Below are positions 25,970 through 46,585 of a stretch of DNA of 64,000 bases, in pieces; position 1 is the first letter of the stretch, and every line of letters begins with the position of its first letter. Origin of the DNA: a virus; the IMG/VR virus record IMGVR_UViG_3300046005_001569, positions 1-64,000 of that record; one strand, given 5' to 3'. Below the pieces are notes generated by a model. It made no database searches. It was not told the DNA's origin and saw nothing but the letters and a program-made list of their open reading frames with translations. The position numbers and the translations under genes were made by a program.

Positions 25970-25989
25970 AAATAAAATTCCTTCTACGC

Positions 25990-26054: not shown

Positions 26055-26906
26055 TTAGCCAAAAGCACTGGGTAAATCATCGTAATCATGTGTTTCAAAC
26101 CACTTTTGCAATTCAAACGATGACATTTCCTCAATGGATTTCGAGCCTGTTTTTTCAGACGGTATAACGCCGCTGCCTAAATCGCTCAAACTAAACGGCA
26201 TCTGAGCTTGGGGAGCTACGGCTGGCGGTGTTGCTTTCGTCTGCGGTTGTGCTGGTACACCTAACATCGCTGTCATAACTTGGTTTAACTTCGCAATTTT
26301 CTCGGATTCGGGTAGTTGCGCTGTTACAGGGTTTTCGTAAAAGGAATCGTAAATCTTTCCAGCTTGCGCCCATGTTTCAGGGTCTTGTTGCATTGCCTTC
26401 AAGTTCGGATAACTTTCAATGATTGCCTGTTGTTGTGCCTCAGCTTGTGCAGCCGTTTGTTGCTGTTTAGCAAGTTCAGCCTGTTCAAACTGTGCTGCTC
26501 GCGCTGCGGCGGTGGCTAATTCGTTCAAGGTTTTCTCGAAAACGATTGCAGCCTCCTCGTCGTACTCTTTCAACTCAGCTAATTTGTCGAGAGCCTCTTG
26601 CGAAATAACGGGGGTAGCTACGCCCTGTCCGTTCTTAAAGGCTTCGATTTGACTAACTAAATTTTGATACTTTTGCTCAATTTCGATTTTGTCGTTTAGA
26701 GCATCTTTAAGTACCTTGAAGGGAATTTTGCGCTGGTCATCAGGTGTTGCGATATATTTTTCAGAATCATCAATTTCACCTTTAGGCACACTTCCTTTTT
26801 CTCCCGCTGGTGATTCGACGGCTGCCGATTGCTCGTCGGTGGTAACGGCTGATTGTTCTTCTGGGTCTAAGATTAGTTTGTCGTAATCACTGATTTCTTC
26901 GCTCAT
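26055..26906 (-). CDS. Scaffolding protein
   Basis: 283 aa from ATG 26906, chosen over the 5' ATG at 26960 because AAGGAAA stands just upstream. Acidic, Gln/Ala-rich and strongly helical (about 75-190: KYQNLVSQIEAFKNGQ; FEQAELAKQQQTAAQAEAQQQ), with a basic-aromatic C-terminus (SSFELQKWFETHDYDD) suited to capsid contact. Directly upstream of the major capsid gene. No protease domain is visible. Confidence 0.75.
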   Translation of the reverse strand: MSEEISDYDKLILDPEEQSAVTTDEQSAAVESPAGEKGSVPKGEIDDSEKYIATPDDQRKIPFKVLKDALNDKIEIEQKYQNLVSQIEAFKNGQGVATPVISQEALDKLAELKEYDEEAAIVFEKTLNELATAAARAAQFEQAELAKQQQTAAQAEAQQQAIIESYPNLKAMQQDPETWAQAGKIYDSFYENPVTAQLPESEKIAKLNQVMTAMLGVPAQPQTKATPPAVAPQAQMPFSLSDLGSGVIPSEKTGSKSIEEMSSFELQKWFETHDYDDLPSAFG

Positions 26907-26982
26907 AATTTCCTTTTCTATTTGACGCATAGGTGCGAAAGTTAAAGTAGGTTTTGCCATTTAACGCATGACTGCGAAATCT

Positions 26983-29047: not shown

Positions 29048-29066
29048 CAGAACGTCGTGATGACGT
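29048..29066 (+). promoter_or_regulatory. Leader element shared with capsid gene
   Basis: CAGAACGTCGTGATGACGT is identical to the minus-strand leader of the major capsid gene, and in both cases AGAAGG and the start codon follow within 25 bp. It folds as ACGTC-GTGAT-GACGT. Identity between two divergent leaders indicates selection or a duplicated leader. Confidence 0.55.
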
Positions 29067-29080
29067 ACAGAAGGTTAAAA

Positions 29081-29539
29081 ATGGCTTACAACTACTCAAC
29101 AGGGTTTATCAATAAAACCCTTGAATCAATCGCGGCTGACCTAGATGGTGGCTGTATTGAAATCTATACGGGGTCGCGTCCGACAAACGCCGATGCGCCA
29201 ATTAAAGGCACATTGCTAGGTATCGTTACCGCTGGCGGCTTGCCGTTCACAGCAGGTAATCCAGCAAACGGTTTGAAGTTCGCAACCGTTGCCGCCGACA
29301 AAACAATCGACAAAGACAGTACGCAAGTTTGGCAATTCAAGGCACTTGAAACAGGTGTTGCAGGTTGGTTGCGTCTTAAAGCAAATGCTGTTGATGCGGG
29401 TGGAAATTCAACGGACGCACTAAGAATTGACGGCTCGATTGCCGCATTCGGTGGCGATGCGACGATTGAAGGCAGCGCAAACATCGAAAAGGACAAGATT
29501 TACACCCTCAACAAATGCACGATAAATTGGGCGGTGTAA
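29081..29539 (+). CDS. Virion-surface protein, 152 aa
   Basis: ATG 29081 follows AGAAGG. The product (STGFINKTLESIAADLDGGC, EIYTGSRPTNADAPIKGTLLG, GWLRLKANAV, ALRIDGSIAAFGG) is a compact beta domain of about 150 residues. A homologous domain forms the C-terminus of the 1348-aa protein in this cassette (SGGSIEFYTGSRPHSAN, KLLGVITG, GWFRIKSD). Probably a decoration or fibre-attachment module. First gene of the inverted operon. Confidence 0.65.
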   Translation: MAYNYSTGFINKTLESIAADLDGGCIEIYTGSRPTNADAPIKGTLLGIVTAGGLPFTAGNPANGLKFATVAADKTIDKDSTQVWQFKALETGVAGWLRLKANAVDAGGNSTDALRIDGSIAAFGGDATIEGSANIEKDKIYTLNKCTINWAV

Positions 29540-29540
29540 C

Positions 29541-30356
29541 ATGGCTGTCCAACAAGCGTTTTTCACTAACGAAGGTGAGGCTTTGTTTGCCTCGATGCTG
29601 TTCAAAAATGACAGTTCTGTTCGTCCTGCAAATTTAGAATTGCTTTTATTTACAAATTTAACTGTAAGCGAAGCAACAAAATATACAGATTTGACCGAAC
29701 CAACAGGCGGTAGTTACGCTCGCAAAACATTAGTTGATGCGAACTGGACAATTGCAAACGGTGTCTTTTCTTACCCTCAACAAACCTTTACGCCAATCGG
29801 CGCGAGCTACACGGGTGCAATTCAAGGTGCGGCAATCGTAACGAAAGGTTCAAGTCCAAAAGTATTGTTTATCGTAACCGACCCTGTAGCACCCATTACC
29901 TTAACCGCTGGCACACCTTACATTGTGGCGGCAAATGTTGCGTGTAATCCCGTAACAAAAGGCAACACTGAGTTTTTCTTGAGCTTACTTTTGAAGAATG
30001 AAATGTCATCGCGTGGAACAGGATTGCAAGCAGTCTTATTCACGAACCCTACCAACATAACAGCCAAACTTTTAGCGGACATATCGCAACCAACAAGTGT
30101 GGGCGGCTATTTGGCAGAAGATATTTTGGATAGTGCTTGGTCAATTGTTACAACAACAGGCGATGCTGTTGCAAATTGCCCTGCCATTTCATTTACGCCA
30201 ACAGGCGAGTTGTTTTCTAGTGATGTAGTGGGCTATGCAATTACGACAAAGACAGCACCTAATTATGTTGTAAGTATTGAAGCTGACCCAGCATCGCCCG
30301 TATCACTACCACTAAACACGCCGTATATCATTACGCCGTCAATCAAAATCATGTAA
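29541..30356 (+). CDS. Virion protein with two tandem beta domains, 271 aa
   Basis: Two copies of one domain: EGEALFASMLFKNDSSVRPANLELLLFTN... at about 10-130 and NTEFFLSLLLKNEMSSRGTGLQAVLFTNPT... at about 140-265, each ending in a PVxxPITL/PVSLPxNTPYI phrase. Internal duplication is typical of phage surface and decoration proteins. Starts 1 bp after the previous stop. Function inferred from cassette. Confidence 0.65.
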   Translation: MAVQQAFFTNEGEALFASMLFKNDSSVRPANLELLLFTNLTVSEATKYTDLTEPTGGSYARKTLVDANWTIANGVFSYPQQTFTPIGASYTGAIQGAAIVTKGSSPKVLFIVTDPVAPITLTAGTPYIVAANVACNPVTKGNTEFFLSLLLKNEMSSRGTGLQAVLFTNPTNITAKLLADISQPTSVGGYLAEDILDSAWSIVTTTGDAVANCPAISFTPTGELFSSDVVGYAITTKTAPNYVVSIEADPASPVSLPLNTPYIITPSIKIM

Positions 30357-30371
30357 TTGGAGTTTTTCAAA

Positions 30372-31511
30372 ATGGCTAACAAAGTTCAACTTTTTCGTTC
30401 TGACGATACAGGCGCACCACAATTAACTAATGCAATCGGTAGCTTAATTGGTGTTTTCGATGCTTGCTTAATCAACGGTTATGGCACACGGGACAGTACA
30501 AAAATCTCGTCAGTAACATCTGTAAGTGACGTTGCAACAATCACATTTAATATGGCTCACGGTTTTCGTGAATTGCAGCGTTTGGAAGTTGTATTGCCTG
30601 ACGAACAATACACAGGCGTGTTTGATGTTACCAGTGTTACCGCAAACAGCTTAACGATAAAACTTAATGGCATTCCCACGTCAGCAACTTGTACGCCTGA
30701 CGCGAGTTCGCTTGTTAAGGTTGCAGGCGCAAAGTGGGTAAAGGAATTTACCGAAGCCAATAAAGCGGCTTATCGCCCAGCGTTAAATACTGCAAACCGC
30801 TGTTATTTGTCTGTCGATGATTCATTGACAACAATTACCAATGGCATTGCAAACGTGCGTGGATTTGAAGCCATGACAGGCGCGACAACAGGGGAGCGAG
30901 CGTTTCCAACAACTGTTCAGCAGGCTGCCTGCAACATTCCAAAATCGTCCGACGCAAATCCCAAAAATTGGATTTTGGTTGCTGACGGCGATATGTTTTA
31001 TTTCTTCGTCAATCCATCAGTAACGTCAACGTACAGCTATTTTGGTTTTGCATTCGGTTATCCAAAATCAAAAATGACACTTGAAGATACATTTGGCTGC
31101 ATTTTGATTGCGTCAAGCGGTACAAATAGCACAACAGCGGTGGGCTTTAAAACCAATATGGGTAGTGCTTTAGGCTGGTTTGCTCGCTCGTTCACTCAAA
31201 TTGGTGGGGCTGTTACATTTAGCTTGTTTGGTTCTGGGATTTCAACAGGGTTTGGCAATGGCGGTGATAGCTTTCCATCGCCGATTGATAATTCACTTAA
31301 CGTATCGCCTGTTTATATTTATCAAAACGGTACGCGCGGAATTTTGCAGGGCATTTTACAGCCGCTACATAACAGACCGATAGGACATGGTTCATATTAC
31401 AAAGGCTTGGCGGAATTTCCTAACCAAACAGTCTTATCAATTGGGTTAGCTGATTCTGGTAATGCGGCAATCAATGGTGAGTTACATATTATCGTCGAGG
31501 GGCTTTGGTAA
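30372..31511 (+). CDS. Virion/fibre-associated protein, 379 aa
   Basis: ATG 30372 (MANKVQLFRSDD) has GGAG at -12; the upstream in-frame TTG is too close to it. Beta-rich with VSDVATITFNMAHGFRELQ, FDVTSVTANSLTIKLNG and a C-terminal domain (PVYIYQNGTRGILQGILQP). Phrases such as MAHGF..L..V.V of this type occur in phage receptor-binding and baseplate-like surface proteins. Family not recognised with certainty. Confidence 0.6.
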   Translation: MANKVQLFRSDDTGAPQLTNAIGSLIGVFDACLINGYGTRDSTKISSVTSVSDVATITFNMAHGFRELQRLEVVLPDEQYTGVFDVTSVTANSLTIKLNGIPTSATCTPDASSLVKVAGAKWVKEFTEANKAAYRPALNTANRCYLSVDDSLTTITNGIANVRGFEAMTGATTGERAFPTTVQQAACNIPKSSDANPKNWILVADGDMFYFFVNPSVTSTYSYFGFAFGYPKSKMTLEDTFGCILIASSGTNSTTAVGFKTNMGSALGWFARSFTQIGGAVTFSLFGSGISTGFGNGGDSFPSPIDNSLNVSPVYIYQNGTRGILQGILQPLHNRPIGHGSYYKGLAEFPNQTVLSIGLADSGNAAINGELHIIVEGLW

Positions 31512-32119
31512 TGCCTGCCGAGATTGTTGTTGCTAATTATTCAGCACGCATTCTTAACACGCGCTATCGAAAATCAGGTAGCGCATTGAATTCGATTGTC
31601 GGCAAATCTGCCAAACGCATTATTCCCGCAAAAATAAAATGCGGTTCAACGTCAAAAACAAAGCTAATGCTTTCAAAAAATTTGCTGCAATTGCAGGCAA
31701 ATCATGGCGTTCCTACTATGCGTTTTTTGCTGGTATCAAAATTACCAATGCGCTTATTTGGTGACAATGGTTCACTGCGTTTTACGATGACTTCGCAGCA
31801 TAAATGCCTTGTTAATGGCGGTTACACTGGCGAAGTTCAAAAAAAATTGCCGCAACGTGTTGGTGCTACGCCTGTTGAATTGATTGTTCCAAACGGGAAT
31901 GCAACCGTATCGGGTACAACAAAAGAAGGCAAAGTACCCGTATCGCGCAAAGTTCGCTTGTATCGCAAAGACAACGGCAAGCTGGTTGATGAAGTTAAGA
32001 GCGATGCGGTCGGTCGTTATCAGTTTGCAAATCTACCTGCTGGGTTCAATTTCTTTGTTGTTTCACATGATAGCAATGGTATCTACAACGCCGCCATTTC
32101 TGACAATATCACTGCTTAG
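31511..32119 (+). CDS. Surface protein with carboxypeptidase-regulatory/Ig-like end, 202 aa
   Basis: TAATG overlap with the previous gene; ATG 31511. The first 115 residues are basic and unrecognised. Residues about 125-200 match a CarboxypepD_reg-like/Ig fold: ATVSGTTKEGKVPVSRKVRLY, then GRYQFANLPAGFNFFVVSHD. Such modules decorate phage particles and bind surfaces weakly. Structural by context. Confidence 0.65.
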   Translation: MPAEIVVANYSARILNTRYRKSGSALNSIVGKSAKRIIPAKIKCGSTSKTKLMLSKNLLQLQANHGVPTMRFLLVSKLPMRLFGDNGSLRFTMTSQHKCLVNGGYTGEVQKKLPQRVGATPVELIVPNGNATVSGTTKEGKVPVSRKVRLYRKDNGKLVDEVKSDAVGRYQFANLPAGFNFFVVSHDSNGIYNAAISDNITA

Positions 32120-32130
32120 AGTTTAAAAAA

Positions 32131-35100
32131 ATGACTGACATTATCTTTAATACCACTTACGCACAACCCGCCTCCAATGTTGCTGATTTGAATTTTGTTG
32201 ATAATGTCATCAATTTTAAAGTTGTTAGTGCAATCGGCATTGAACCCAAAACCGCATTCCAAAAATTACCAGCGCGAAACTTCAAAAGCACAATTGCAAT
32301 TGACGTGCTAGGTAAATTTGAAAACCCAACACCACACTTTAAAGCCGAATCTATAGATGTTATTTCCATAGTTCCCGCGATAGGATTTCATGTTGTTCAC
32401 GATAAAGGTGACGGCGACACGTTGTTTGATAAAACTCAATTCCTTTGCCATTTTATAGGTGATGAAACGGGTATCGAGATTCGCAACAAAGCGAACAATG
32501 AAAAAGGAATTTTTTATACGGGCGGCGTAACTAACGGCATACAAGATACTAGACTAAGTTCTTACAAGCCAAACGATGACGCATTTGAAGGCTTTGTTCA
32601 CCAAGAAAAAGGAGGTGAATATACTGGTTTCAGATTTAAGGATTTTGGAAGGAATCTTAGTGTTCGCGGTAATGATTGGTGTTTTGAAGCAAGAGTGAAA
32701 TTTCCCGAAGGATTAAATTTGGACGAAGTTGGCGGCTCGTATCAGTTATTTTCAAATTGGCAAATTAAGGTATTGGTAGGGTTGAACTCCGAGGATAAAA
32801 GGCTGTCATCAATCACGTTAGAAACAGGAAAAGGCAATAATCTTTTTCTGCTTAACAAAAATTTTTACTTTTATTGGAACTTGTACGAAAAAGAAATTGA
32901 TATAGTCGATTCATTTGCAGCTATAAAACTGCTTTGCGTAGATGGGAATTTCGAGCTTTGGATAAATGGCGTAGTTATGGCAGCCCCCAAAGTCCCTGTT
33001 GCACAAATTTTTATAAGTGGCACGTTTAATCTTCCAACGTATCATTTATTAGATGTTCCTGTTGTCAATTATCCGAAAGATAACCTTTTTTCAGAAACCA
33101 CAAAAGCAGTTCCCGTTACACCAGAAGTATTGGCAGGTATTGAATCCATGTCAAACCTAATGGAAATAAAAAGCAATAAAACACATAAATTTTATCGCTC
33201 AAAAACTAGGATGCTAACAATTGACAATGATAGTTTCAGGTTGAACGGTCACAATTACGCAGTTGATTTGAAGTATGTCTATGGCTTAAAGAAAATTGTT
33301 GTTGCGCCAAATTACATGGATATATTTTTTAATACCAATGTAATTGCTGAAACCAGCATTAGAGTTGATTTTCCGAAGCCTTTGTACGTTTGGTTTTATT
33401 TGGATGTCGATGTAAAAGCGGGGGAAACAAATACATTCACACCCGTTAATTATCAAGGAAATTATCTTAATAACATCAATAGTAAAATCCTTGATAAAAC
33501 CAAAGTTTTTGGCTACAACAAACTTCCTGTGGAAGCGAGGGGGTCTTTTTTGCGACTTGAAATGATTGATAGTGTTTTAAATGTCACGCTTCATTTCTAT
33601 GAAAACACCAACTTCGTTACAAAATCAGTGCGCTTAGAAAGTGCCACAGAATTTCCATTGGCAAACTTTTGTTTCGACGCGCCACCATTTGAAACAATTA
33701 ACGACACGACATCATTTGTTATTGATGTGGATTCATTGTATTTATTCGGTACGCCATATAGCGACGCTAAATTAAGTACCATTGAGTTATCGTATTCCGT
33801 TTGGGGTTATTACGAGGGAAAGAGAGTTGACGGCACTGATAATTTCTTGGAACACACAATAATAAGCGACGTTACGGATAATTTAACTGGTACTACTGAG
33901 CGGTATGACTATTTGCGACCGCTAGGCGAATTTACAAATAGAATAACTAATCAGGCGCAGCGTGATGAATTAAAAGCGATTTTCGACAATCGTGATAACT
34001 TTGAATATATCGGCGAATCAAATCTAGTTACATACACTTCTCGCACGGACATAGGCAAAAATCCGCACTATTGCTATGGTGTTGATAGATTTATTGTGAA
34101 TGAAGATTACGTTGAAATTATTTTTGACGATACATTTATCGAGGATTCGCATAAATTTTACACGCCATTTAAGTTGAAAAACTATTATAGGGATTTAGTA
34201 GGGACGCAAAATAATTACGAAGTTTATTTTGAAATCCGAAATAATAAATTTACTTGCGTGCTATATGAAGTCTTTTATGTTACCAACAGTTCTTCGGTAG
34301 CGACCTATAGCTATGACAAAGTTAAAACATTAAGACTAAATCAAGAATTTACAGCGACTTACAAGCAAAAAGATTTAACAATTTACGATGGTAGCGTTCA
34401 TTTTGGCTTGTATGGCGAACTTGAATATAGAAATGAAAACGCCATTGATATTAGCGCAAAACTACTTTTAGACGAGGCGCGTTTTACGATAGGCGATGCA
34501 CGCTATAGAGATAGTGAAATCGTACCCACCGAACCATTCCCTGATTACCTTCAAAATGTAATTGAAATTCAGCCAAATTTTGGGCTGTCTGCAATCTACG
34601 AGTTTGGTTCAAACAACACAATTGCTTTTGATGCAAAGGCAGCGTTCAGGGGTTACACGAAGAAATCTAAGGTAACTACGCCAACCGACCCTAACGTAAT
34701 AGTTCCTGTTGAATATCGCGCCGAATCCATAATTGGATTAACGCCAGTATTTGAGATTTCAAGGGAGGTTTTCTTGAATGACATCAATGAAATTTCAATT
34801 GTTGGAAACTCCATGTTTGCCACTGCTCGTAACGTTGAATTCAATCTTGAGCTGTCTGTTGTTTCAAATTCATCATTTTTATTATCGACACCGATTCTAG
34901 CTTGCGACCCGTTATTTGAAAGTGTTGTTTTATTGATGCCGTGTGACAGCTATCCTTTGGTTGATATTATCGGACATACAGTAACCAGTGGCAGTAGCGT
35001 GACCGTAGGCGACACGAAGGCTGTATTCAATGAAAAGTCGTTGAACATTGTTAGCGACATAAACAGCTTGGTCGAAGTGTCCAGCTCCGATTTCGGGCTT

Positions 35101-36177
35101 ACAAAAGATTCAATTTTTTGCATTGAGTTTTGGTTTTATCCTACTTCCGACACCAACTACATTTCAATAATGCAGTTCGGTTCAAAATACGTTGACAGTT
35201 ATGGTGCAGCAACACAGTACAACTGGCAATTTATTACCAGTGCTGGGAATGTTGCGTTTGGAATCGGGAATACAAAAACACCTACAACCTTCGGCTCAAG
35301 GGCTACGTCAACAAACAAGTTCAACTTGAATAAATGGAATCATGTAAAAGCAACTAACGAAAAATGCTTTTTAAATGGGGTTGAGTTTGGTGTTGATTAC
35401 ATATCAAAAATATCAGCTACATTCTTTAATTTCTTGCCAACGGACGTTTTGACAATCGGTAACAAACGCTGGTGGAATTCGTCGTACCCAACTCTAAAGT
35501 TAAGCGATATTCGCATAACGATTGGCAGTAACCGTTCAACTGAAAAGACACCGCCAGAAACACCCTATTTTAGAGTTTCTTGTATTAAACACGAAATAAC
35601 GCCTGTTAATTTCTTTAGCAATTCCGTTATTGATTTCTCAATAAGCGCAGATATGAAGTCGTACCCGCCTATTGCGTTTTCACACGAATCCGAAATAAAC
35701 GTCGGGGCTGAATTGGTGTTTAGACAAATAAAGACTGAAATTGTGTACTTGCCAGTAGAAAACAAATCAAAAGTTTCGACGGGGTTTGTTGATATGTTGT
35801 TGGGCGGTTTTGGTGTGTCAGAAACGCTTAGTGGCGGCTCAATTGAGTTTTACACGGGTTCACGTCCCCATTCTGCAAACCACGCCGTAACAGGCAAATT
35901 GCTTGGTGTTATTACAGGCATTCAGTTTGGTATTCCAGCCAACAGGGTGATTAGCAAATCAACAACCGAACTTTGGAACTTCACGGGATTGGCGACAGGC
36001 AAGATAGGCTGGTTCAGGATTAAGTCGGATTCATCTTTTACCGATTACGGGCAGGATTCCGTGCGCGAAGTAAGGATTGATGGCGAGGCGGGTGTTGATG
36101 CCATATCGTCGAATTTTGACGTTGTTATAGGCAATCAGTATTTCATTGATAAGTTCTATATCGCATGGAGTAACTGA
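32131..36177 (+). CDS. Giant fibre-like protein with concanavalin/LamG-type domains, 1348 aa
   Basis: Three or more stretches resemble LamG/concanavalin-like jelly rolls: about 80-300 (FLCHFIGDETGIEI, NDWCFEARVKFPEG, FELWINGVV), a second near 560-815 (YEVYFEIRNNK, LLLDEARFTIGDARY), and a third at about 925-1130 (VVLLMPCDSYPL, IFCIEFWFYPTSDTNYISIMQF, LSDIRITIGSNR). The last 135 residues are a copy of the 152-aa domain encoded by the first cassette gene. Probably a receptor- or glycan-binding tail fibre. Its stop overlaps the next gene's upstream region closely. Confidence 0.75.
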   Translation: MTDIIFNTTYAQPASNVADLNFVDNVINFKVVSAIGIEPKTAFQKLPARNFKSTIAIDVLGKFENPTPHFKAESIDVISIVPAIGFHVVHDKGDGDTLFDKTQFLCHFIGDETGIEIRNKANNEKGIFYTGGVTNGIQDTRLSSYKPNDDAFEGFVHQEKGGEYTGFRFKDFGRNLSVRGNDWCFEARVKFPEGLNLDEVGGSYQLFSNWQIKVLVGLNSEDKRLSSITLETGKGNNLFLLNKNFYFYWNLYEKEIDIVDSFAAIKLLCVDGNFELWINGVVMAAPKVPVAQIFISGTFNLPTYHLLDVPVVNYPKDNLFSETTKAVPVTPEVLAGIESMSNLMEIKSNKTHKFYRSKTRMLTIDNDSFRLNGHNYAVDLKYVYGLKKIVVAPNYMDIFFNTNVIAETSIRVDFPKPLYVWFYLDVDVKAGETNTFTPVNYQGNYLNNINSKILDKTKVFGYNKLPVEARGSFLRLEMIDSVLNVTLHFYENTNFVTKSVRLESATEFPLANFCFDAPPFETINDTTSFVIDVDSLYLFGTPYSDAKLSTIELSYSVWGYYEGKRVDGTDNFLEHTIISDVTDNLTGTTERYDYLRPLGEFTNRITNQAQRDELKAIFDNRDNFEYIGESNLVTYTSRTDIGKNPHYCYGVDRFIVNEDYVEIIFDDTFIEDSHKFYTPFKLKNYYRDLVGTQNNYEVYFEIRNNKFTCVLYEVFYVTNSSSVATYSYDKVKTLRLNQEFTATYKQKDLTIYDGSVHFGLYGELEYRNENAIDISAKLLLDEARFTIGDARYRDSEIVPTEPFPDYLQNVIEIQPNFGLSAIYEFGSNNTIAFDAKAAFRGYTKKSKVTTPTDPNVIVPVEYRAESIIGLTPVFEISREVFLNDINEISIVGNSMFATARNVEFNLELSVVSNSSFLLSTPILACDPLFESVVLLMPCDSYPLVDIIGHTVTSGSSVTVGDTKAVFNEKSLNIVSDINSLVEVSSSDFGLTKDSIFCIEFWFYPTSDTNYISIMQFGSKYVDSYGAATQYNWQFITSAGNVAFGIGNTKTPTTFGSRATSTNKFNLNKWNHVKATNEKCFLNGVEFGVDYISKISATFFNFLPTDVLTIGNKRWWNSSYPTLKLSDIRITIGSNRSTEKTPPETPYFRVSCIKHEITPVNFFSNSVIDFSISADMKSYPPIAFSHESEINVGAELVFRQIKTEIVYLPVENKSKVSTGFVDMLLGGFGVSETLSGGSIEFYTGSRPHSANHAVTGKLLGVITGIQFGIPANRVISKSTTELWNFTGLATGKIGWFRIKSDSSFTDYGQDSVREVRIDGEAGVDAISSNFDVVIGNQYFIDKFYIAWSN

Positions 36178-36178
36178 C

Positions 36179-38026
36179 ATGGATTTCTCCGCGAAGCTGC
36201 ACATAAAAGGCTATTCAACCTTTACGCTTGAAAGCAATTACAACACTTACGATTCCGATTTTGACAAGGTTCAGTTGTTATTGCATTTTAACGATGCAAG
36301 CGGAACTAAGCAGGTCAATGATGTCAAAGGACATTATCCTGTTGGGTTGAAGCAAACCGCTGTCAAGCAAGGTGCTTTTGGCGAAAAAAGAGAATCCGTT
36401 ATTTTTCTTGATGGTGCTAATTGGGGTGGCATCGAGATTAGCCCTAACAATAGGTTTGGCGCGTTAAGCAGCTTCAATTTGTTCCAAGACGTTGACGGAA
36501 TTTCCCGCGCGGCTGACGTTGATTGGTGTTTCGAGTGTTTCATTTCTGACACGGTTCAAACGGGTAGCGCGTGGACAACAGGCGGCTACATTGCGTCAAA
36601 CAGCTACTATCCAAACATTGAAAATGATTACAACACGGGCGTTGATTGGGGCGTTAGATTAGAGCTTGGAAAAATTATCGTCGTTATTGGTGACGTGGAT
36701 TACGCTTTTGATATTCCTTCTGGCTATTCTTTTTCAAGCTGGGATTTCTTGCGCGTTCAACGTGAATCGAATGTACTTACTTGTTGGCTAAACACGGACT
36801 TTTTGGGATTTCACGAAAATGTTATTGTCCAAGAAAAGCGTTACCACAGCTATTTTAAGATAGGCAGGGCAAGCGAAAGGCAATCGTTACGCACTGCACT
36901 TGACGAGGTTCGATTTACAATCGGCACTGCGAGAACGGGCGATAACGGAACAATTCCAACAAAACCGTTTCCAAATATCGGGGATTTAGAAGGTCGCCCC
37001 AAGATAGTGATTGATGCGGCGGCTTCTTTTTCACAACAAAGCGATGTGCCTGTATCAACAGGGCAGAGTTTGTCAGTTAATATACCAATTGACATTGACC
37101 TTGATGTTTCGCTTGTTTTGAACAAGGACGAAATAAATTTTGTCATTCCCGCGCCAACCTTTGAAATTTCAATACAAAAATCGGTTTTTATTTCAGCGAA
37201 TTTTGAAATTTACAATCCGCTGAAATTTCTAATTAACATTTCGGATAGCGGCGCATCGACCACGATAACAATTCCAAGCCCCACGTTATCAATCTCAATT
37301 TCGCGTGACACAACGCTTGGAATCGCAATCACACTGCCTTCACTTGCAATTGATACAGTCATTAAAGAGGCTGCGCTTATTGATATTGGTGTTGTGATAC
37401 CCGACCCTTCAACGCCGATAGCCCCGCCGTCTTTGGTAACGTTGCAACCAATAACGCTTCCGAATCCGACAATTACCATCGAGTTAGGAATTGAGCCGAT
37501 TATATCAATAAGCGCATTCTTACCCGCGCCAACCCTTGTTATATCCGCTTATACAACGTCGCTTGAATGGAATATACCGATTGTAAGCGTGCCAAAATTC
37601 AATGTGAGTATTACGCCGCCATTCGACTTATCAATTTTAATTCCATTGCCTAGCATCGAATTGTATTTGCCTAATCCAACAACGCCACTGCCGCCAACGT
37701 CACAATGGTTTGACGTGCTGCTACCTGATTTCATAGATGATTGGTACACGGAGCTGCAAAACGTCGTCAATGTAATTCTTCCTGCACCAAAGATAACATT
37801 GAAGATGTCGGTCAATCAGGACATTTCAACGGTAATCAAATTACCAAAACTTCAAATTGCGACCGCTATATCGCTCGACAATCACATGAAAAACGATATT
37901 GGCGTTGATATTTACTTGCCGCTATTAAAAATTGATGGCTTCACGAATAGGGATTTGAGTATGTCGCTCGATATAAAACAACCGTTTATAAACATTGAAC
38001 TATTAACATCGGACGACTTCTTATGA
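36179..38026 (+). CDS. LamG-type domain plus Pro-punctuated beta-repeat protein, 615 aa
   Basis: ATG 36179, 1 bp after the upstream stop. Residues about 20-255 form a LamG-like domain (DKVQLLLHFNDASGTKQVNDVKG, DWCFECFISDTVQ, ALDEVRFTIGTARTG). Residues about 290-610 are short beta repeats each opened by a Pro motif: IPAPTFEISI, IPSPTLSISI, LPNPTITIEL, LPAPTLVISA, IPLPSIELYL, LPAPKITLKM, LPKLQIATAI. This predicts a long beta solenoid or fibrous rod carrying a lectin-like head. Family not recognised. Confidence 0.7.
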   Translation: MDFSAKLHIKGYSTFTLESNYNTYDSDFDKVQLLLHFNDASGTKQVNDVKGHYPVGLKQTAVKQGAFGEKRESVIFLDGANWGGIEISPNNRFGALSSFNLFQDVDGISRAADVDWCFECFISDTVQTGSAWTTGGYIASNSYYPNIENDYNTGVDWGVRLELGKIIVVIGDVDYAFDIPSGYSFSSWDFLRVQRESNVLTCWLNTDFLGFHENVIVQEKRYHSYFKIGRASERQSLRTALDEVRFTIGTARTGDNGTIPTKPFPNIGDLEGRPKIVIDAAASFSQQSDVPVSTGQSLSVNIPIDIDLDVSLVLNKDEINFVIPAPTFEISIQKSVFISANFEIYNPLKFLINISDSGASTTITIPSPTLSISISRDTTLGIAITLPSLAIDTVIKEAALIDIGVVIPDPSTPIAPPSLVTLQPITLPNPTITIELGIEPIISISAFLPAPTLVISAYTTSLEWNIPIVSVPKFNVSITPPFDLSILIPLPSIELYLPNPTTPLPPTSQWFDVLLPDFIDDWYTELQNVVNVILPAPKITLKMSVNQDISTVIKLPKLQIATAISLDNHMKNDIGVDIYLPLLKIDGFTNRDLSMSLDIKQPFINIELLTSDDFL

Positions 38027-38457
38027 GTACATTTAATTTAAACATAGCCAACCAAGCCCTAACCAAATCAACAGGAAACGTTTTTTTACGCCAGTTTCGT
38101 ATTGGTTCAAAAAACTATGGGATTGATACGTCAGGGGTTTATTTGATTGAAGGTGATTTAGATAATGGTGACGGTTTTGATACGTTCATAAAAACAACCG
38201 CGAATTCCTTTGGCGAAGTATCAAAGAAGCGATTGCCAGAATTGAGAGCAGAAAAAACAGGCTTGTTAAGTGTCGCTGTTATTTACGATGGTGAATTATC
38301 GGGTAGTGGCGTTGAACATGGTGATAGCGGTTTCGTCCGTTTTGGTAAAGGTGGTGGCGGTAAGCTGGTTTCATTGATTATGCACAGTGACGACGAAAAC
38401 TTACAACTACGCAGTATCAAAATGATGCCGCAACAAATAGGCGTGGGGGCGTTATGA
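38023..38457 (+). CDS. Hypothetical virion protein, 144 aa
   Basis: ATGA overlaps at both ends (38023-38026, 38454-38457). A beta-rich protein with a Gly-rich loop (GDSGFVRFGKGGGGKLVSLIM). Tightly coupled between the solenoid-like protein and the first 11-mer-repeat protein, so possibly the joint between them. Family not recognised. Confidence 0.6.
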   Translation: MSTFNLNIANQALTKSTGNVFLRQFRIGSKNYGIDTSGVYLIEGDLDNGDGFDTFIKTTANSFGEVSKKRLPELRAEKTGLLSVAVIYDGELSGSGVEHGDSGFVRFGKGGGGKLVSLIMHSDDENLQLRSIKMMPQQIGVGAL

Positions 38458-40592
38458 TTCCCGTCGAAATAACTGCTTTCATTAACGACGTTACCGACAA
38501 CATTGATTTAGATACAGCGGATTTAAAAGGTGCTGTTAAATCAATTTTGGCAGCAGGCGCAACACAAGCGATAGCCGCCAAAAACAACTTGGTTCGACAA
38601 TCGCGTTACATTTCAGCCAATAAAGGATTCACAAGGCTATCACCGATTTTGTCACAAGGAATTAGCAGTGCAAGCGAGGCGTATCTCGATGCAATCAATA
38701 AAGCCGCCGACAATGCGATTCAGTTCGCAGAAAGCGCACAAACGCAACAGGCGCAGGCAATAGGAGCGTTGATACCACAACAACTACGCTCTGACGTTGA
38801 AAAGGCGGTCAATCAAATTGAGCTTGATAGCAAATTAAAGGTCAACTTAATTGGGTTGGAAACACAACGCGGATTAGCCGATATTGAAATGCAAACTGCA
38901 ATAGGCGTTAGTGCGATTGCCAAAGATTTCAAGCGCAAGGTTAGTCGAATTGATATTGACGGGACGATTGCAAGTAAGCGTATTGATGCAAGCAACGAAA
39001 TAATGACCATGATGGACGTTAATGAAATCAAGGTTAAGAACGCGCTTGATGTCGGAATAATTAAACGTAATGCCTTGTTGGTCGCTCAATCAATCGGATT
39101 CGACAAAGAAATTGAGGCAAAAACAAAAACGACTGACGCAAGGATAAATGCGTCAAAGGCTATGTCGGGCGCGAGAAACAGCGCGGAGCTAAACAAAGCC
39201 CAAGCAAGGTATGACGGTTCTGTTTTGGTTGGCAGTTCAAGGCTTTCGGCTGCACAGAAAATAGGGGATTCTGAAATAAAACGAGCCGACGCAATAGGAC
39301 AGGCGCGGGTACTCACACATGAAAAAGAAGGCGGCGCAAAAAGAGAGGCGTTTTCAATCACATCGTCTGCGAGAAACGACGCTTTAATAACGACAACAGG
39401 CGCACGCTTAACAGCACAAGAAATAACAACCAATGCACGAATTGAAGCAAATAAAACTGACCTTGATGCACACATAAAAGCATCGACCATTGCGATAAAT
39501 GCCAAGTCCGAAGCGTCTGGCATCTTGATAAATTCACGCAAAAACGCCTTTGCTATCGAACTCGAAGGCACGGTACAGGGCAGGGGAATAACACACGAGC
39601 AGGACAAATTAAACGATGCCGCTGAGTTCGCCTTGAAATCCGCATTAAAGACAGCAAGCACCGACAAGCAAATCGCACAAAAAACAAATGAGTTTGCCGC
39701 CCGTGTTAGTGGCATTAACGAAAGGTTTAACGCTTCTCGAACAGCAAACCTAAATGAAGTAAGCGAATCGTTATCTTCTGAAACCAAAAAGAATTTGGCA
39801 CAACAAGCCTCGATATTGGAGCGTAGCAACGCCAACACCTACGCATTAGGAAAAGAAAATTTAGGACGTGAGTACAACATGACCAAATCATTCCTAACCA
39901 AAAAAGAAATTGAAGCCCAGCGTATCGGAATGGAATCTGAAATTACAAACAATGAAGTGGTATCTAAGATTGCCTTACAAGATGAAGATTTCTTATCTCG
40001 CATTAAATCCGCCCAAGCGCGTGCATTAGAGCGACGCAAGGCAGCATTCGATAAAAACTTGGCGCAACAAGAAGCAATCATATTGAAAACGACAACACGC
40101 GCCGAAGAAATTACAAACAAAACGGCTGCCAATATCGGAGCGGCAAACACTGAAAACGCGGCTAGTATCGCTGTATTGAATGACGAACTAAAAAGCCGTT
40201 CAGACATTGAATTAAACGAACTCGCGGAACGTTTAGCCGCCGCTGCCAGTGAAGAAGAAGCCTATATTGCCTATCTCAAAGCATCCGCCGCCAATAAAAA
40301 CAAATACGAGCGAGAAATTGACGATGCAAAAATCGAATCCGATAAACAGATATTTGAGGCGCAATCAAAAGCACTCGATATGCAGGTCGCGCAAAACGCC
40401 TATGTGCAGAAAAAACAAGACGATACCCGCTATAAAATTGCAAAAGATAGCTTGGCATTCGATTTAAGCACGAAGGCTAGACACGCTTATTACGAAACAT
40501 GGCTAGACATTGCCGCTGCAATTTCTAAACGCGATTTGGCAGAAGCAAACCAAGTACAGGTACACAACATTGTAGAGTTGAAGGGTGACTAA
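38454..40592 (+). CDS. Hendecad-repeat (11-residue) long-helix protein A, 712 aa
   Basis: After a short N-terminal region, residues 122-376 read without phase change as 23 blocks of 11 (for example IELDSKLKVNL, IGLETQRGLAD, IEMQTAIGVSA; later TTDARINA, ITTNARIEA, DLDAHIKA endings recur every 11). The pattern continues with minor changes almost to the C-terminus. Hendecads form right-handed coiled coils or amphipathic membrane-lying helices. No globular domain or enzyme motif is visible. Encodes a paralogous neighbour directly downstream. Probably a very long virion rod or internal protein; role unknown. Confidence 0.7.
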   Translation: MIPVEITAFINDVTDNIDLDTADLKGAVKSILAAGATQAIAAKNNLVRQSRYISANKGFTRLSPILSQGISSASEAYLDAINKAADNAIQFAESAQTQQAQAIGALIPQQLRSDVEKAVNQIELDSKLKVNLIGLETQRGLADIEMQTAIGVSAIAKDFKRKVSRIDIDGTIASKRIDASNEIMTMMDVNEIKVKNALDVGIIKRNALLVAQSIGFDKEIEAKTKTTDARINASKAMSGARNSAELNKAQARYDGSVLVGSSRLSAAQKIGDSEIKRADAIGQARVLTHEKEGGAKREAFSITSSARNDALITTTGARLTAQEITTNARIEANKTDLDAHIKASTIAINAKSEASGILINSRKNAFAIELEGTVQGRGITHEQDKLNDAAEFALKSALKTASTDKQIAQKTNEFAARVSGINERFNASRTANLNEVSESLSSETKKNLAQQASILERSNANTYALGKENLGREYNMTKSFLTKKEIEAQRIGMESEITNNEVVSKIALQDEDFLSRIKSAQARALERRKAAFDKNLAQQEAIILKTTTRAEEITNKTAANIGAANTENAASIAVLNDELKSRSDIELNELAERLAAAASEEEAYIAYLKASAANKNKYEREIDDAKIESDKQIFEAQSKALDMQVAQNAYVQKKQDDTRYKIAKDSLAFDLSTKARHAYYETWLDIAAAISKRDLAEANQVQVHNIVELKGD

Positions 40593-40593
40593 A

Positions 40594-42759
40594 ATGAAAA
40601 TACTCGATAAGTTTAAATCAACGGTTGGCGCGTCGCCTTACGTTTCGGATGTTACAAAATTCATTACCGATTCATATAGCGGTAACGATTTGTCTAACGA
40701 AAAGCTAACAGAAAATTCATCTTTGTTAGGTGTAATGCAGCGACAATCCACTGTTAAGTTGCGTGATGCCATTTCAAACGTAATTGTGCAGGATGCGTCT
40801 GCAACGTTTTTGCGCCAAAGCGTGCTTACTGGAACGGTCGGCGAACTTGTTGGTCTTGAAAATAGAATCATTATTGCGGAACTAAACAAGGTTCAAGCCG
40901 AAGAAATTGCAAAACTCGAACAATCGGGGCGTTATGACGTTGCGAACTTGCAGGGCGAACTAAAGAAAGAGCTAACCACAATCGACGGTCAAATTGATGT
41001 TGAAATGGCTATAGTCAATGCCGAAGCAAAAGTGCTGCTTGCAACCGAAGTAGGCACGGCAATTCACGACGGCAAAGTGGACATTGAAAAGCAAACATCG
41101 AGAAACAACATTGAGTTAGCTAATATCGACGGAATGAACGATGTGAAAATTGCCGAAATTAAAGGCAATAACATCGTGAAAATGGGTGTGATTGATGCCG
41201 CCGTAATTAAGGCTGAATCCGATATTGATGTGGCTGGTGTTAAATCCGCTAGTGATATTGCTGTCTTTGGTATTGCACGAGAGGCGGATTACGATGCTAA
41301 CTTTATAAAATTGCAGGCTATTAACGAGGCTAAATTAAAAGATATTGCTACCGTCCATGAAGTTCAAAACATTGCGACAATGGGCGATTCAGAAGTGTCG
41401 CTAACACACGCAATGGCAATAAGTGAAAAAGGTGTCACCGAAGTTTCTGCAAAAATTGAATCCACTGCAATCAAATCAATTGCAGGCGGCGAGGCTAAAT
41501 CAATTGCAGAAATGGCAGCCGCTAAAGCAAGTGCAACAGAAAGCAATGCAAACATTGATGCTACCTTTACGCGCTTATCCGCAGTCCAAGACGGCGCGGC
41601 AAATGAAAGCATGGCAACAATGAAAAAAGGGGCGACGATTACCGAAGCGATTGCTAACGCTGACTACTCCGCAAGCCGCAGTCAATTGAAGCAGGGCGAA
41701 ATGAGAAACGATGCCACGTTATCCGATAGCATTTCGTTAGCCCTTAGCAACGCTGAAATCGCAAACATTAAGACTGTGAACGCCGCTGAAACTGAAAACA
41801 TCGTTATTACAGGCAAGGATAAGGTTGAATCAATTAAAAACTTATCGACTGTCCAAATTGAAAACATCAAGTCTATATCGGTAATTGAACGCGATACAAT
41901 CAAAGCTAACGCCGACACTCGTTTGGAATTCACGAAACAAGCCGCCGATTTTGATGCCGAAAACGACGCAGCACTGTTTAGTATTGAAAAAGAGCGACGC
42001 ATAAGTGTTTCAAAGATTACATTAGCAGGCGATACCAAAATCGGCGAAAACAGGATAAAGATGCAAGCCGAAATAGATGCTGTTGAAACAAACGAAATCA
42101 AATTGTTATCCGATAATGACATAGCCACGATTAGACAAATGGCAAAGGTTGACGCGGATTCTGAAATTAAATTAACGGCTGTTGAAATAAACGCAATCAA
42201 TCAACTGGCAGCACAACGCGCCAACAGCATCAAAACAAAGAGTTCGGTTGCAATGGCGAATGAAAGGTTTTTAAGCGAAACCGTAAAGATACCAAGTATC
42301 AAATCTTTTTCAGCTTTGAAAATCAAGGAGTACAGCGATAGAGGTGATATTGAAAATCAAACTAATGATTCAATGTTGCCTGAACGTTTGCGTGTTATCA
42401 ATGTTGGTCGTGACTTGCGTGTAAATCAAATTATCAAAGATGCAACGGTACGCGATAAAGCTGCACGCACAGAAGCCGATACGACAACCGCTGCACAAGA
42501 GGCGAATTCAAAAGATTCGATTGATATGCAAAACAAATTCCTTGATTACCTTGAAAGAATCAAAATTTTGTCAGGTATTGATAAGTCCTTGTTGGCGGAG
42601 GAGGCGGGTTATTATGCCGCCAATACAGTCCATAAAACTATCAAATACAAAACTGACTTTAATCTGCCGCTCGGTGGCATGAATTCAAGAAAGCCTCGGT
42701 TTGGCAGTACAAGCGTTGAACCACCACCCGACTTTCAAAAAAAACCTGATTTCATGTAA
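40594..42759 (+). CDS. Hendecad-repeat long-helix protein B, 721 aa
   Basis: ATG 40594, with AAGG spaced 9 nt; a GTG 9 bp upstream is too near the SD. Residues 411-553 are 13 perfect-phase 11-mers (VESIKNLSTVQ, IENIKSISVIE, RDTIKANADTR and so on to ANSIKTKSSVA). Much of the rest is similar, and the C-terminal 60 residues (MNSRKPRFGSTSVEPP) are Pro-rich. Same architecture as the preceding gene, from which it is separated by 1 bp. Last gene before a strong terminator. Function unknown. Confidence 0.7.
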   Translation: MKILDKFKSTVGASPYVSDVTKFITDSYSGNDLSNEKLTENSSLLGVMQRQSTVKLRDAISNVIVQDASATFLRQSVLTGTVGELVGLENRIIIAELNKVQAEEIAKLEQSGRYDVANLQGELKKELTTIDGQIDVEMAIVNAEAKVLLATEVGTAIHDGKVDIEKQTSRNNIELANIDGMNDVKIAEIKGNNIVKMGVIDAAVIKAESDIDVAGVKSASDIAVFGIAREADYDANFIKLQAINEAKLKDIATVHEVQNIATMGDSEVSLTHAMAISEKGVTEVSAKIESTAIKSIAGGEAKSIAEMAAAKASATESNANIDATFTRLSAVQDGAANESMATMKKGATITEAIANADYSASRSQLKQGEMRNDATLSDSISLALSNAEIANIKTVNAAETENIVITGKDKVESIKNLSTVQIENIKSISVIERDTIKANADTRLEFTKQAADFDAENDAALFSIEKERRISVSKITLAGDTKIGENRIKMQAEIDAVETNEIKLLSDNDIATIRQMAKVDADSEIKLTAVEINAINQLAAQRANSIKTKSSVAMANERFLSETVKIPSIKSFSALKIKEYSDRGDIENQTNDSMLPERLRVINVGRDLRVNQIIKDATVRDKAARTEADTTTAAQEANSKDSIDMQNKFLDYLERIKILSGIDKSLLAEEAGYYAANTVHKTIKYKTDFNLPLGGMNSRKPRFGSTSVEPPPDFQKKPDFM

Positions 42760-42803: not shown

Positions 42804-45035
42804 TTAATCGTTTTCGGGTGTTTCAATACCTTGATTAACACCAGCAAGGGGCGACTTTGGTTTTGCAGGTAAGTTAGGGCTGGTACTTACGGGCATTTGT
42901 TCCGCCGCTTCTTCTTGTGGATTGTCTACGGGTTCAGCTAATTCTTCGGCAGGCGAATCAATTTGTTGTTCTGGTGCTTGAATTAGTGGCGCGTCGTTAA
43001 AGTCTTTGCCGCCTGCACTGGTAAAAATTGAATCCGCGACGGGTACAATTGCGGGTGTTGCTGCTACCAATTGCGCTGCCTGTGTTGCTGCAAATAATGC
43101 CTCAACATTCTTAACGGTCGTTTGCGCGTTCACAAATTCAACGTCAGCGGATAGTTTTTGTAATTGCGCCTGTTGCAACTGATTAGCCATTTCTTGCGCC
43201 TGTTGCTGTGCTTGCGCCTGTGCTTGTTGTTCTGGCGTTTGCTCGTCGTCACTTGATTGACCTGTTGCCTTGCGAATCAAATCAGCCATTTCCTTTTTAT
43301 CCTGCAAATCACTTTGTTCAATAACGAAAGGAATTAGCAACGCCTGCAATTCTGGCGGCAATGTTTTAATCATGTCGGTTAATTGTTGCTGTTGTTGTGC
43401 TTTATATGTCGGTGTTGATGGTACTTCGCCCAACACCACGCCTACATTTATTTTGTTCACGTCGTTCATTATCACGATTTCGCCCGTTATCGGGTCTTGA
43501 ACTTCTTGATTTAAAACAAGTGTATCGCCTTCAATTCGTTTTTCTTCTTCCGTGCCGACAACATAGTTCTTTTGTTGTCCCAAATCTTCGAGTAAAAGCG
43601 ATAACAGTTGCTCACCTATCAGTTGGCGTGCAAATTCTGCATTGTCGTTAGGTTCTGCAAGTGTGACGTTACCTTGTTCAACCAAGATACCCGCGTGGAC
43701 ACCACTTGTTGAATCGTCCTGACTGCCTAGCATGGACTGATAAACGCCCATAACTTCATTGATTGTCTTTTTATGGTCTAAGTAGATTTCCATTTGTTCG
43801 CGTGCAATCGGCGTACCGTCTTGAATATCGAACCTTGCGCCCTGCATTGCCATTGCCTTAGCATTGAGTTCAATCATTGCCGTAGGGCTTGAGGCTTGTT
43901 GTCGTACCTTGTTGGGGTCAGTAATAACGCCCTGTGTGTAAATAATAGACTTTGAACCTAACAAGTGATTCATTTTGAATAGTCTATCGTTAATGTTGTC
44001 TTGTTGCGGTATCGCCGATTGAATCAATCCATAAGGTGCAAAACTCGCGTCATCAACAAAGCAAACCATTTTGATGTAAGGTAGCATTCGATGTTTGTAT
44101 GGTGTTGGTTCATCTAGCACCATTTGCGAGGCTACCCAAATTGAGCGACGCACTGCCATATAATTAGCATTTCTAACCTGCACGCCTTGTTGAACCAATG
44201 CCAAGTGTTCAGGATTGTCCTTTTCAAATTCAACAGTTTTACCCATTGGTATTTTAATGACGTTGCCGTTCACGATTTCACGATACCAAATTTCATAAAT
44301 CGGAACAGTTTTGCGATTGACACTAGCCATTTCAAAGTCGTCAAACGTTAGCCAATTGTTTAAAGCCTCAACGCCGCCCGTCGTGTGAATGTTTGTATCG
44401 CGTCGAATATCCCAAATTTGCCCTCTATCATAGTTTGTGAAGCGGTCAATTTCTGCCTTAGCTTGCGGGAATATCGCCTTAGCCGTGTCTATATCGTATC
44501 TGCGACGGCGCACAACATAACGGCAGTCACTCATATCTTGTTGGCGGGTTCTAAAATCCCAAAACATTTCATTCCTGTGAATAAACTCGACGCGGTAAGG
44601 TGAACCAAACGGGTCTGCATTGCGCCCAACATGAACCCAACCGATACCCGCCTTAATCATTGAGGCGTAAGCGTCGCTAAATGCACGGTCGGCGCGGGTT
44701 TCCTTTTCTGCTTTATGTAGTTCAATGTTGATTGCGATTGCTAAATCCGTTGCAACGTCGTTCATTTCGGATTGCACAAGCCAATCGCGTCGCCCTTTCG
44801 CCTCCATGCCTAGAACCATGTTGATAATGGGTTTGATTAGGTTTTGAATGCTGGGTTCTTGCCCCCGCTCTCTTAGAATTCGAGCCTTTTCGGGACTGCA
44901 TTGGCGGTCATCGTAATACGCCACGCATTTATTCATTTGTGTTCTAAATTCGGGCTGTTGCTGTATTTCATAAAGAAATTGCTGCAATGAATCTTTATTT
45001 TTAAGTGCTGCGTTTGTGCTGTTATTTGTCGTCAT
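42804..45035 (-). CDS. Portal protein, P22-like
   Basis: 743 aa, similar in size to P22 gp1. Conserved stretches: YYDDRQCSPEKARILRERGQEP, NLIKPIINMVLGMEAKGRRDW, ASMIKAGIGWVHVGRNADPFG, PQQDNINDRLFKMNHLLGSK, and the helical barrel/Gln-rich C-terminus (QAQAQQQAQEMANQLQQAQLQ). It forms the dodecameric DNA gate of the head and binds the terminase. Follows terminase genes. The leader hairpin places the SD in its loop. Confidence 0.9.
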   Translation of the reverse strand: MTTNNSTNAALKNKDSLQQFLYEIQQQPEFRTQMNKCVAYYDDRQCSPEKARILRERGQEPSIQNLIKPIINMVLGMEAKGRRDWLVQSEMNDVATDLAIAINIELHKAEKETRADRAFSDAYASMIKAGIGWVHVGRNADPFGSPYRVEFIHRNEMFWDFRTRQQDMSDCRYVVRRRRYDIDTAKAIFPQAKAEIDRFTNYDRGQIWDIRRDTNIHTTGGVEALNNWLTFDDFEMASVNRKTVPIYEIWYREIVNGNVIKIPMGKTVEFEKDNPEHLALVQQGVQVRNANYMAVRRSIWVASQMVLDEPTPYKHRMLPYIKMVCFVDDASFAPYGLIQSAIPQQDNINDRLFKMNHLLGSKSIIYTQGVITDPNKVRQQASSPTAMIELNAKAMAMQGARFDIQDGTPIAREQMEIYLDHKKTINEVMGVYQSMLGSQDDSTSGVHAGILVEQGNVTLAEPNDNAEFARQLIGEQLLSLLLEDLGQQKNYVVGTEEEKRIEGDTLVLNQEVQDPITGEIVIMNDVNKINVGVVLGEVPSTPTYKAQQQQQLTDMIKTLPPELQALLIPFVIEQSDLQDKKEMADLIRKATGQSSDDEQTPEQQAQAQAQQQAQEMANQLQQAQLQKLSADVEFVNAQTTVKNVEALFAATQAAQLVAATPAIVPVADSIFTSAGGKDFNDAPLIQAPEQQIDSPAEELAEPVDNPQEEAAEQMPVSTSPNLPAKPKSPLAGVNQGIETPEND

Positions 45036-45295: not shown

Positions 45296-46585
45296 TTATT
45301 GCGCCCAATAAGGTATCGGTTCGTCGTTTAGTGGCACGGTTTCAATCGGTGTTGACCAGCTTTGTGCAAACTGCCTGAAAGCGTCTGAACCGTTTGAAGC
45401 GTGATTGTGTAATGGTTTGTCGCGCTTGTAACTCATTAGTTTATCGTCGTATTCATATTGATAAGACTTGAGCGCACGCAATCCTAACGCGCATTTCTCC
45501 TTGTCAAACCAGCATTGCTTTAAAATATGCCGTGTTGCGTCGATGCCTGTTGCGATTTCCTTCACTCTCGGTACGGTTACAATGTTTGTTAAGCCGTATT
45601 CCACAAGCGCGTCATGTCGTGTAATGCCTGCAATCAATTCTGAAACTTGCACGTCATGCGGTAAATAGTGTTCATCGTATTCGTAACCGTCGCTTTCAAC
45701 CTTATCAATAATCAATTTGGCGTAATGTCGCAAGTCCTTACCTGTGTTTTCGTAATAGTCGATTACTCGATGTTCTTCACCTTGCGCGTGTTGAATGAAC
45801 CATATTGCCGTCGCGTCGCGTTTTCCTAAGTCCCAATAAGTGTTGACCTGTAATAATGGTTCGTGTGGCAACACTGTTATTCTGTTTCCAGCCTCAAGAT
45901 ATGCAAGTTCATCTTGATAGATTGCGCCCTCAATTGCCGCCCTGCATTTACCGCCCCAAACGTTCTCCGCCGCTGCGTGGTCGCGGCTGTAGTCGTCATC
46001 CTTTTGTTGTAATAACGTTTTTGAAATAAACGGGTTATCGTACCAATTGATATTGATAACAATTGAATCACTGGGCGTGTACTTGATAAAGCGTTGATAA
46101 CAGTCGTCAGTTTCTAAAATTGGATTGAATAGTACCCACACTTCGCTATTTTCCTCGCGGATTGTCGGCAATAGCACTTTAAAACTCGATTCACTGACAT
46201 ATTGACCTTCTTCAACAATACAAATCGTCACGCCTTCGATTGATTTAATGTTGCCGATATTGTGATGCAAGCCTTTAAAAATAAACTCCGTCCCGTTTCT
46301 GCCTACAATTGTCTTTTCTGTAACTATGTAAAACCAACCTAAACCCAACTCGTCAATCGTATCGGATAACAGTTTGTGTATTGAATCCTTGATACTTACT
46401 TGAAATTCGCGGGTACATAAGATTCGATGTTTTCTTTTCATTCCCTGCATTAACGCGGCTTGTGCAACGGTCGTTGATTTACCGCCGCCTCTACCACCAT
46501 ACATAATGAAATAGCGATACCGCCTTTTATCAAAAAGCGGCAATAGCTTTTTAGGTATCTTTAGGCGCGATTTTGCTTTAGTCAC
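45296..46585 (-). CDS. terL: Terminase large subunit, PBSX/Terminase_3 type
   Basis: 429 aa. Walker A GGRGGGKST (about 28-36), CTREFQVSIKDSIHKLL, Walker B-like ICIVEEGQY (about 132-140), and the motor's coupling phrase VLFNP. The nuclease half opens with NTYWDLGKRDATAIWF. It packages DNA, and its P22/PBSX-like form suggests headful packaging and therefore circularly permuted ends. Overlaps terS by 8 bp. Confidence 0.93.
   Translation of the reverse strand: MTKAKSRLKIPKKLLPLFDKRRYRYFIMYGGRGGGKSTTVAQAALMQGMKRKHRILCTREFQVSIKDSIHKLLSDTIDELGLGWFYIVTEKTIVGRNGTEFIFKGLHHNIGNIKSIEGVTICIVEEGQYVSESSFKVLLPTIREENSEVWVLFNPILETDDCYQRFIKYTPSDSIVININWYDNPFISKTLLQQKDDDYSRDHAAAENVWGGKCRAAIEGAIYQDELAYLEAGNRITVLPHEPLLQVNTYWDLGKRDATAIWFIQHAQGEEHRVIDYYENTGKDLRHYAKLIIDKVESDGYEYDEHYLPHDVQVSELIAGITRHDALVEYGLTNIVTVPRVKEIATGIDATRHILKQCWFDKEKCALGLRALKSYQYEYDDKLMSYKRDKPLHNHASNGSDAFRQFAQSWSTPIETVPLNDEPIPYWAQ

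Follow-up and report, generated by a model that had tools for sequence, protein, structure and literature searches.

Genes A and B are two adjacent late genes of a phage that, by its sequence, is F116/8P-like with a P22-type portal, and their products look, by prediction, almost wholly built of 11-residue repeats (hendecads) in the form of very long α-helices. In these proteins we observed an 11-residue period, two hydrophobic seams, and a conserved face that recurs every 3.67 residues, as well as conservation of A and B as a pair and a late-gene neighborhood. From these features we infer, tentatively and with confidence a little short of even, that A and B are putative virion proteins that would form oligomeric multi-helix tubes or bundles for phage DNA delivery.

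An orphan gene pair at the end of a late block

The window that we analyzed comprises 64,000 nucleotides, namely positions 1-64,000 of the 65,728-base virus record IMGVR_UViG_3300046005_001569. The P22-type portal protein (42804-45035, minus strand; PF16510, phrog_156) shares 31-32% identity with the portals of F116-like phages and of phage 8P, and the major capsid protein (24689-25999, minus strand; phrog_334) matches the F116-like/8P group as well. The tail is probably short; phiC725A, an F116-like phage, is a podovirus with long fibers (PMC5217972). The genes for RecT, an antirepressor, an O-like replication protein, and ParA point, by sequence, to a temperate and perhaps plasmid-like phage. 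A giant polyvalent DarB-like gene on the minus strand (window positions 53297-63991 and 1-2430) straddles the two ends of the record (record end 65728), and joining end to start yields a single open frame of 4,981 residues, which makes it probable that the record is complete and either circular or circularly permuted. A 3,564-aa part of this protein carries helicase, MuF_C, and LPD38 domains. Neither Rfam matches nor tRNA genes were found in the window. The large terminase ORF (45296-46585, minus strand) encodes 429 aa, compared with roughly 520-570 aa in relatives, and its N-terminal part may be absent, split, or differently encoded.

A and B close a plus-strand late block (29057-42759), and the two tandem ORFs of 712 and 721 aa at 38454-42759 described in the original prediction were confirmed. 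Gene A (38454-40592, plus strand; 712 aa) starts in an overlap with the preceding stop codon (ATGA), and gene B (40594-42759, plus strand) encodes 721 aa, including a Pro-rich C-terminal tail, from an ATG. A GTG at 40585 would give 724 aa; an AAGGG ahead of the ATG at 40594, together with the alignment to the start of the homolog B', makes this ATG the best start. Upstream in the same block are (i) a 384-aa tail assembly-like protein (30357-31511, plus strand; phrog_9998/9600), a homolog of 8P_014; (ii) a 1348-aa protein (32131-36177, plus strand; phrog_3758) with a LamG-like lectin domain (PF13385), which is a probable receptor-binding fiber; (iii) a fiber-associated 626-aa protein (36146-38026, plus strand), whose N-terminal part resembles the 1348-aa protein and whose remainder is Ile/Pro-rich; and (iv) a 144-aa protein (38023-38457, plus strand) of the "virion structural protein" family phrog_26502, which also matches 8P_020, the protein directly preceding the coil protein 8P_021 in phage 8P. 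No homology was detected between the 626-aa protein and the N terminus of 8P_021. Downstream, the portal gene is convergent with B at a distance of 44 bases. Farther off on the minus strand are a 643-aa Pro/Gln-rich, probably disordered protein (26983-28914) and a 301-aa protein (26055-26960; phrog_479), a probable scaffold by its position before the capsid gene. Promoter and terminator scans around A and B returned fewer sites than in shuffles.

The sole homologous pair, A'/B', lies on a 9,948-base IMG/VR contig (L004/L013) and is 42-44% identical to A/B, with A' being partial. The genes of this contig run in one direction in the order A', B', a 615-aa disordered protein (the homolog of the 643-aa protein), a probable scaffold, and the capsid gene. 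The fiber/A/B block is inverted relative to the portal and capsid genes in the window, whereas A'-B' run capsid-wise in L004, a difference that may reflect inversion of the module in one of the lineages. In three further near relatives (L017-L019), the sequence stops short of the A-B region and has no bearing on the presence of A and B. Substitution rates between B and B' (dN 0.56; dS 3.4, which is saturated) indicate, at the sequence level, purifying selection.

Beyond this pair, no relatives of A or B were found in PHROGs, Pfam, NCBIfam, or PDB sequences, and the profile searches thus returned none of the family matches that would have contradicted the original prediction. The same was true of tblastn searches of phages with A, B, and B' and of plasmids with B; genome contigs searched with an alignment of A yielded no A relatives and no capsid relative either. 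Hendecad-preserving permutation tests gave no secure homology between A and B themselves (best p=0.025), and detected none between A or B and the 8P_021 family, the phiX174 pilot protein H, or the tape measure protein (TMP) of TP901-1; profile comparison with the 8P_021 family (phrog_10969) likewise gave no match. Judged by their sequences, the A and B families are orphans, and their period is unusually pure. One other ORF, at 19515-21416 of contig L006, initially scored as 11-periodic and was rejected, being a Gly-rich tail fiber with a different repeat.

Hendecad arrays with two seams and one conserved face

BLOSUM-based autocorrelation against shuffles gave z values of 9.8, 6.7, 5.9, and 4.2 for A, and of 7.6, 6.0, 5.8, and 5.2 for B, at lags 11, 22, 33, and 44, respectively. 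A, B, A', and B' all had very strong lag-11 self-similarity, and none of them had any at lag 7. Consistent with this, a period-11 cyclic hidden Markov model (HMM) scored 197 nats for each of A and B, while refitted shuffles scored 109±6 (A) and 115±8 (B), which places the period ∼10-14 SD over chance. The long hendecad arrays proposed in the original prediction, and the 11-residue period to be sought as their signature, are thus real. The blocks had been placed at residues 122-376 of A and 411-553 of B, each in one phase; arrays are indeed present there, but they extend farther, and the single phase does not hold across 122-376 of A. According to the cyclic HMM, the A array spans residues ∼109-664, shifts phase near residues 175 and 216, and then keeps a single phase for ∼449 residues (216-664), the B array covers 372 residues (195-566 in the 724-aa numbering) with no phase change, and the A' array has 306 residues in one phase. 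This amounts to about 34-41 in-phase hendecads in A/B. At 0.15 nm per residue, straight helices would give in-phase stretches of about 67 nm in A and about 56 nm in B; rods tens of nanometers long are therefore possible.

The indel that separates B from B' is exactly 11 residues long, that is, one hendecad. At the DNA level there is no array, just a small 33-nt excess, which suggests that the repeats are ancient. A and B together contain a single Trp, and no other Pro- and Gly-poor proteins >230 aa are encoded in the window. AF2 monomer models of A and B are helical nearly throughout, at low confidence (pLDDT 42 and 56, respectively).

Within the arrays, hydrophobicity power was strong at 5.5, 2.75, and 2.2 residues. 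At 3.67 residues, where the original prediction expected the hydrophobicity peak, it was weak in the A array (p=0.017) and not significant in the B, A', and B' arrays; the 3.67-residue period shows up instead in the conservation between homologs. In an 11/3 helix, a 2.2-residue period arises from two opposed stripes (twice 3 is 6, equivalent to 5 modulo 11), and direct counting indeed found two 3-4-4 stripes of Ala, Ile, Leu, Met, Val, and Phe on each helix (p<0.001 for the score of the top two stripes in each of A, A', B, and B'). The stripes are separated by 164° in A/A' and by 131° in B/B', values that are merely indicative, as the homologs are non-independent and the angles come in steps of 33°. 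A and B thus combine both features by which hendecad coiled coils are recognized, namely an 11-residue period without a 7-residue period and a 3-4-4 core spacing with a face of period 11/3.

Identity between the homologs showed one sharp peak at 3.67 residues, with a power of 18.0 for B/B' and of 13.7 for A/A', while 99% of shuffles were at or below about 10. No such peak was seen in pairs from the 8P_021 family, nor outside the array in B (residues 42-148 and 567-655). The column of B with the highest conservation (73%, mostly Asp/Glu) lies midway between the seams, and the side facing away is variable (18-32%), so that the conserved half consists of both seams and the mostly acidic column between them. 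Independently of composition, the conservation peak supports a model of 11/3 α-helices with one conserved side that would be buried or face inward. The 3.67-residue periodicity of conservation also offers a practical detector of hendecad helices that hydrophobicity analysis misses.

A putative DNA-delivery tube or bundle and its alternatives

We propose that A and B would each form long, right-handed or straight 11/3 α-helices, whose two hydrophobic hendecad seams would contact two different neighbors; helices packed side by side in this way would build a multi-helix tube or bundle, to be used for DNA delivery in the manner of ejection or pilot proteins. Since each two-seamed helix would pack on at least two others, tubes or large bundles suit the sequences better than dimeric or trimeric fiber shafts, and it is the two-seam packing together with the genomic position of A and B that favors a pilot- or ejection-like role. 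Further points in its favor are that (i) the phage yardsticks with a strong lag-11 signal, phiX174 H and the TP901-1 TMP, serve DNA delivery; (ii) the record looks complete, and A and B are its window's only long Pro- and Gly-poor proteins; and (iii) the AF2 models, despite their low confidence, are helical almost throughout. Against it count the lack of an 11-residue period in the T7 and P22 ejection proteins; the lack of any TM-like segment in A and B, which would leave the crossing of membranes to another protein; the position of A and B behind fiber genes, which fits fiber parts equally well; the occurrence of two-faced helices in monomeric helical-hairpin bundles, which are not tubes; and the reliance on a single homolog pair, with A' partial and stripe angles coarse.

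Helices of the apolipoprotein, LEA, and synuclein type typically carry 11-residue repeats, and the original prediction had suggested that A and B might line membranes during entry. Arrays that coat or line membranes as lipid-binding amphipathic helices would need one dominant apolar face and strong 3.67-residue power, where we found power at 5.5, 2.75, and 2.2 residues, no TM-like segment, and, on the conserved side of B, a column of charged residues between the two seams; we consider this reading extremely unlikely. The main rival, which we regard as somewhat unlikely, holds that A and B are the shafts of long tail fibers or whiskers, that is, outward-pointing coiled-coil rods that hold the lectin receptor-binding proteins encoded upstream. 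Indeed, the late operon that closes with A and B also encodes the 1348-aa LamG protein and its shorter paralog, the T7 fiber gp17 gives a coiled-coil signal at both 7 and 11, and the thin, 66-nm tail-like structure of phiC725A has been interpreted as long fibers packed tightly together (PMC5217972). However, dimeric and trimeric shafts are normally single-striped, with a hydrophobicity peak at ∼3.5-3.67 residues, of which A shows little and B nothing; two conserved stripes point to contacts with more than one neighbor, and neither A nor B has a recognizable receptor-binding or other known domain.

That A and B are tape-measure-type proteins, by which a long tail or tail extension would be sized, is very unlikely, even though a subset of TMPs is defined by 11-residue repeats (PMC3271669), the TP901-1 TMP has an equal lag-11 score, and the indel between B and B' is one whole hendecad. 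The structural module is podovirus-like, with its P22-type portal and an Hc3-type head-closure gene (17003-18178); tail-tube, chaperone, and terminator families had no match among the late genes searched; the TP901-1 TMP mixes periods of 7 and 11, which A and B do not; and A and B have neither TMP homology, a TMP PHROG match, nor a TM-like segment. A late operon encoding long, soluble, helical proteins would also suit non-virion products of late infection, such as an assembly scaffold or a cytoplasmic filament. This we judge improbable, because the syntenic 8P gene is annotated as structural, and because in JC1, a Bcep22-like phage, the proteins encoded at the corresponding place just before the DarB-like one were detected in virions by mass spectrometry (PMC9144972); these proteins need not be homologs of A and B.

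If A and B do form tubes for DNA delivery, they would be a natural case of long multi-helix assemblies of hendecads with a geometry readable from sequence, would help to explain how podoviruses with unrecognizable ejection proteins cross the envelope, and would be useful for α-barrel engineering. A bolder version of the proposal, which we consider rather doubtful, is that two orphan, two-seamed hendecad proteins make up the DNA-delivery tube of this phage as independently evolved barrels of the phiX174 H type, several times longer than H and with a helix number set by the seam angle. For the 131° of B, a simple ring would contain about seven helices.

Comparison with known phage proteins

The original prediction knew of no phage protein family with such arrays, which is contradicted by the TMP subset (PMC3271669) and by phiX174 H, whose hendecads belong to a decameric α-helical tube (PMC7354561); what is new here is the purity of the period, the two-seam pattern, and the absence of homology. 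Both H and the TP901-1 TMP have a part in DNA delivery (PMC7354561, PMC5099701). Like A and B, H has hendecads in a long α-helical domain (with a modest lag-11 z of 4.2 and a lag-7 z of 1.5), and its DNA-delivery tube of many side-by-side helices is what the putative A/B tubes would resemble; unlike them, it has three hendecads followed by heptads, is 328 aa long, belongs to an ssDNA microvirus, and lines its lumen mostly with Asn, Gln, and Arg. The TMPs with 11-residue repeats share with A and B long arrays whose unit number differs among phages (PMC3271669), and the lag-11 z of 9.8 for the TP901-1 TMP is comparable, but this protein has a lag-7 signal too, and TMP repeats differ in their Trp/Phe markers, their mixed 7/11/18 spacing, and their occurrence in long-tailed phages.

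The podovirus ejection proteins (T7 gp14-16, P22 gp7/20/16, and DEV gp71-73) are helical and are expelled to lengthen a short tail so that it spans the envelope (PMC8954989, PMC10925440). They are like A and B in the proposed role only, as the autocorrelation found no 11-residue period in those of T7 and P22, and neither the PHROG ejection families nor ejection proteins among PDB sequences matched A or B. Ejection proteins are known to diverge past recognition (PMC8954989).

The closest positional counterpart is the 8P_021/phrog_10969 coil family, with members in 8P (where it is annotated "structural protein"), F116, Y11, Y7, MW202615, AP1, and pANC7919.1. In 8P and pANC7919.1, the gene order is fiber-like, phrog_26502-like, coil protein, and disordered protein, with the giant polyvalent protein next or farther on; the same order in Y11, Y7, and F116 was taken from annotation order. 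A and B stand to the phrog_26502 gene as the coil protein does, and the relation to the disordered protein is matched in L004, where it directly follows B'. Members of this family thus share with A and B the late-region place and a long helical domain, but differ by Pro-rich N-terminal segments and mostly mixed periods of 7, 11, and 18. The most hendecad-like member is the 450-aa "structural protein" of Acidovorax phage AP1 (L023, 9803-11155; lag-11 z 6.4, lag-18 z 5.3), while the coil protein of the Acinetobacter phage-plasmid pANC7919.1 (L034, 28274-30796; lag-18 z 8.9) has 18-residue repeats (7+11) and is, by its sequence, a natural heptad/hendecad hybrid. The coil proteins of Y11 (L020, 10119-12824) and Y7 (L021, 2443-5124) are ∼270 residues longer than 8P_021, partly through a long insert within the coil region, apparently an internal duplication.

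Taken by analogy, A and B look like counterparts, though unrelated ones, of the DNA-delivery proteins that form tubes or tapes in other phages, and they may work in the manner of phiX174 H or of podoviral periplasmic-tunnel proteins while being homologous to neither.
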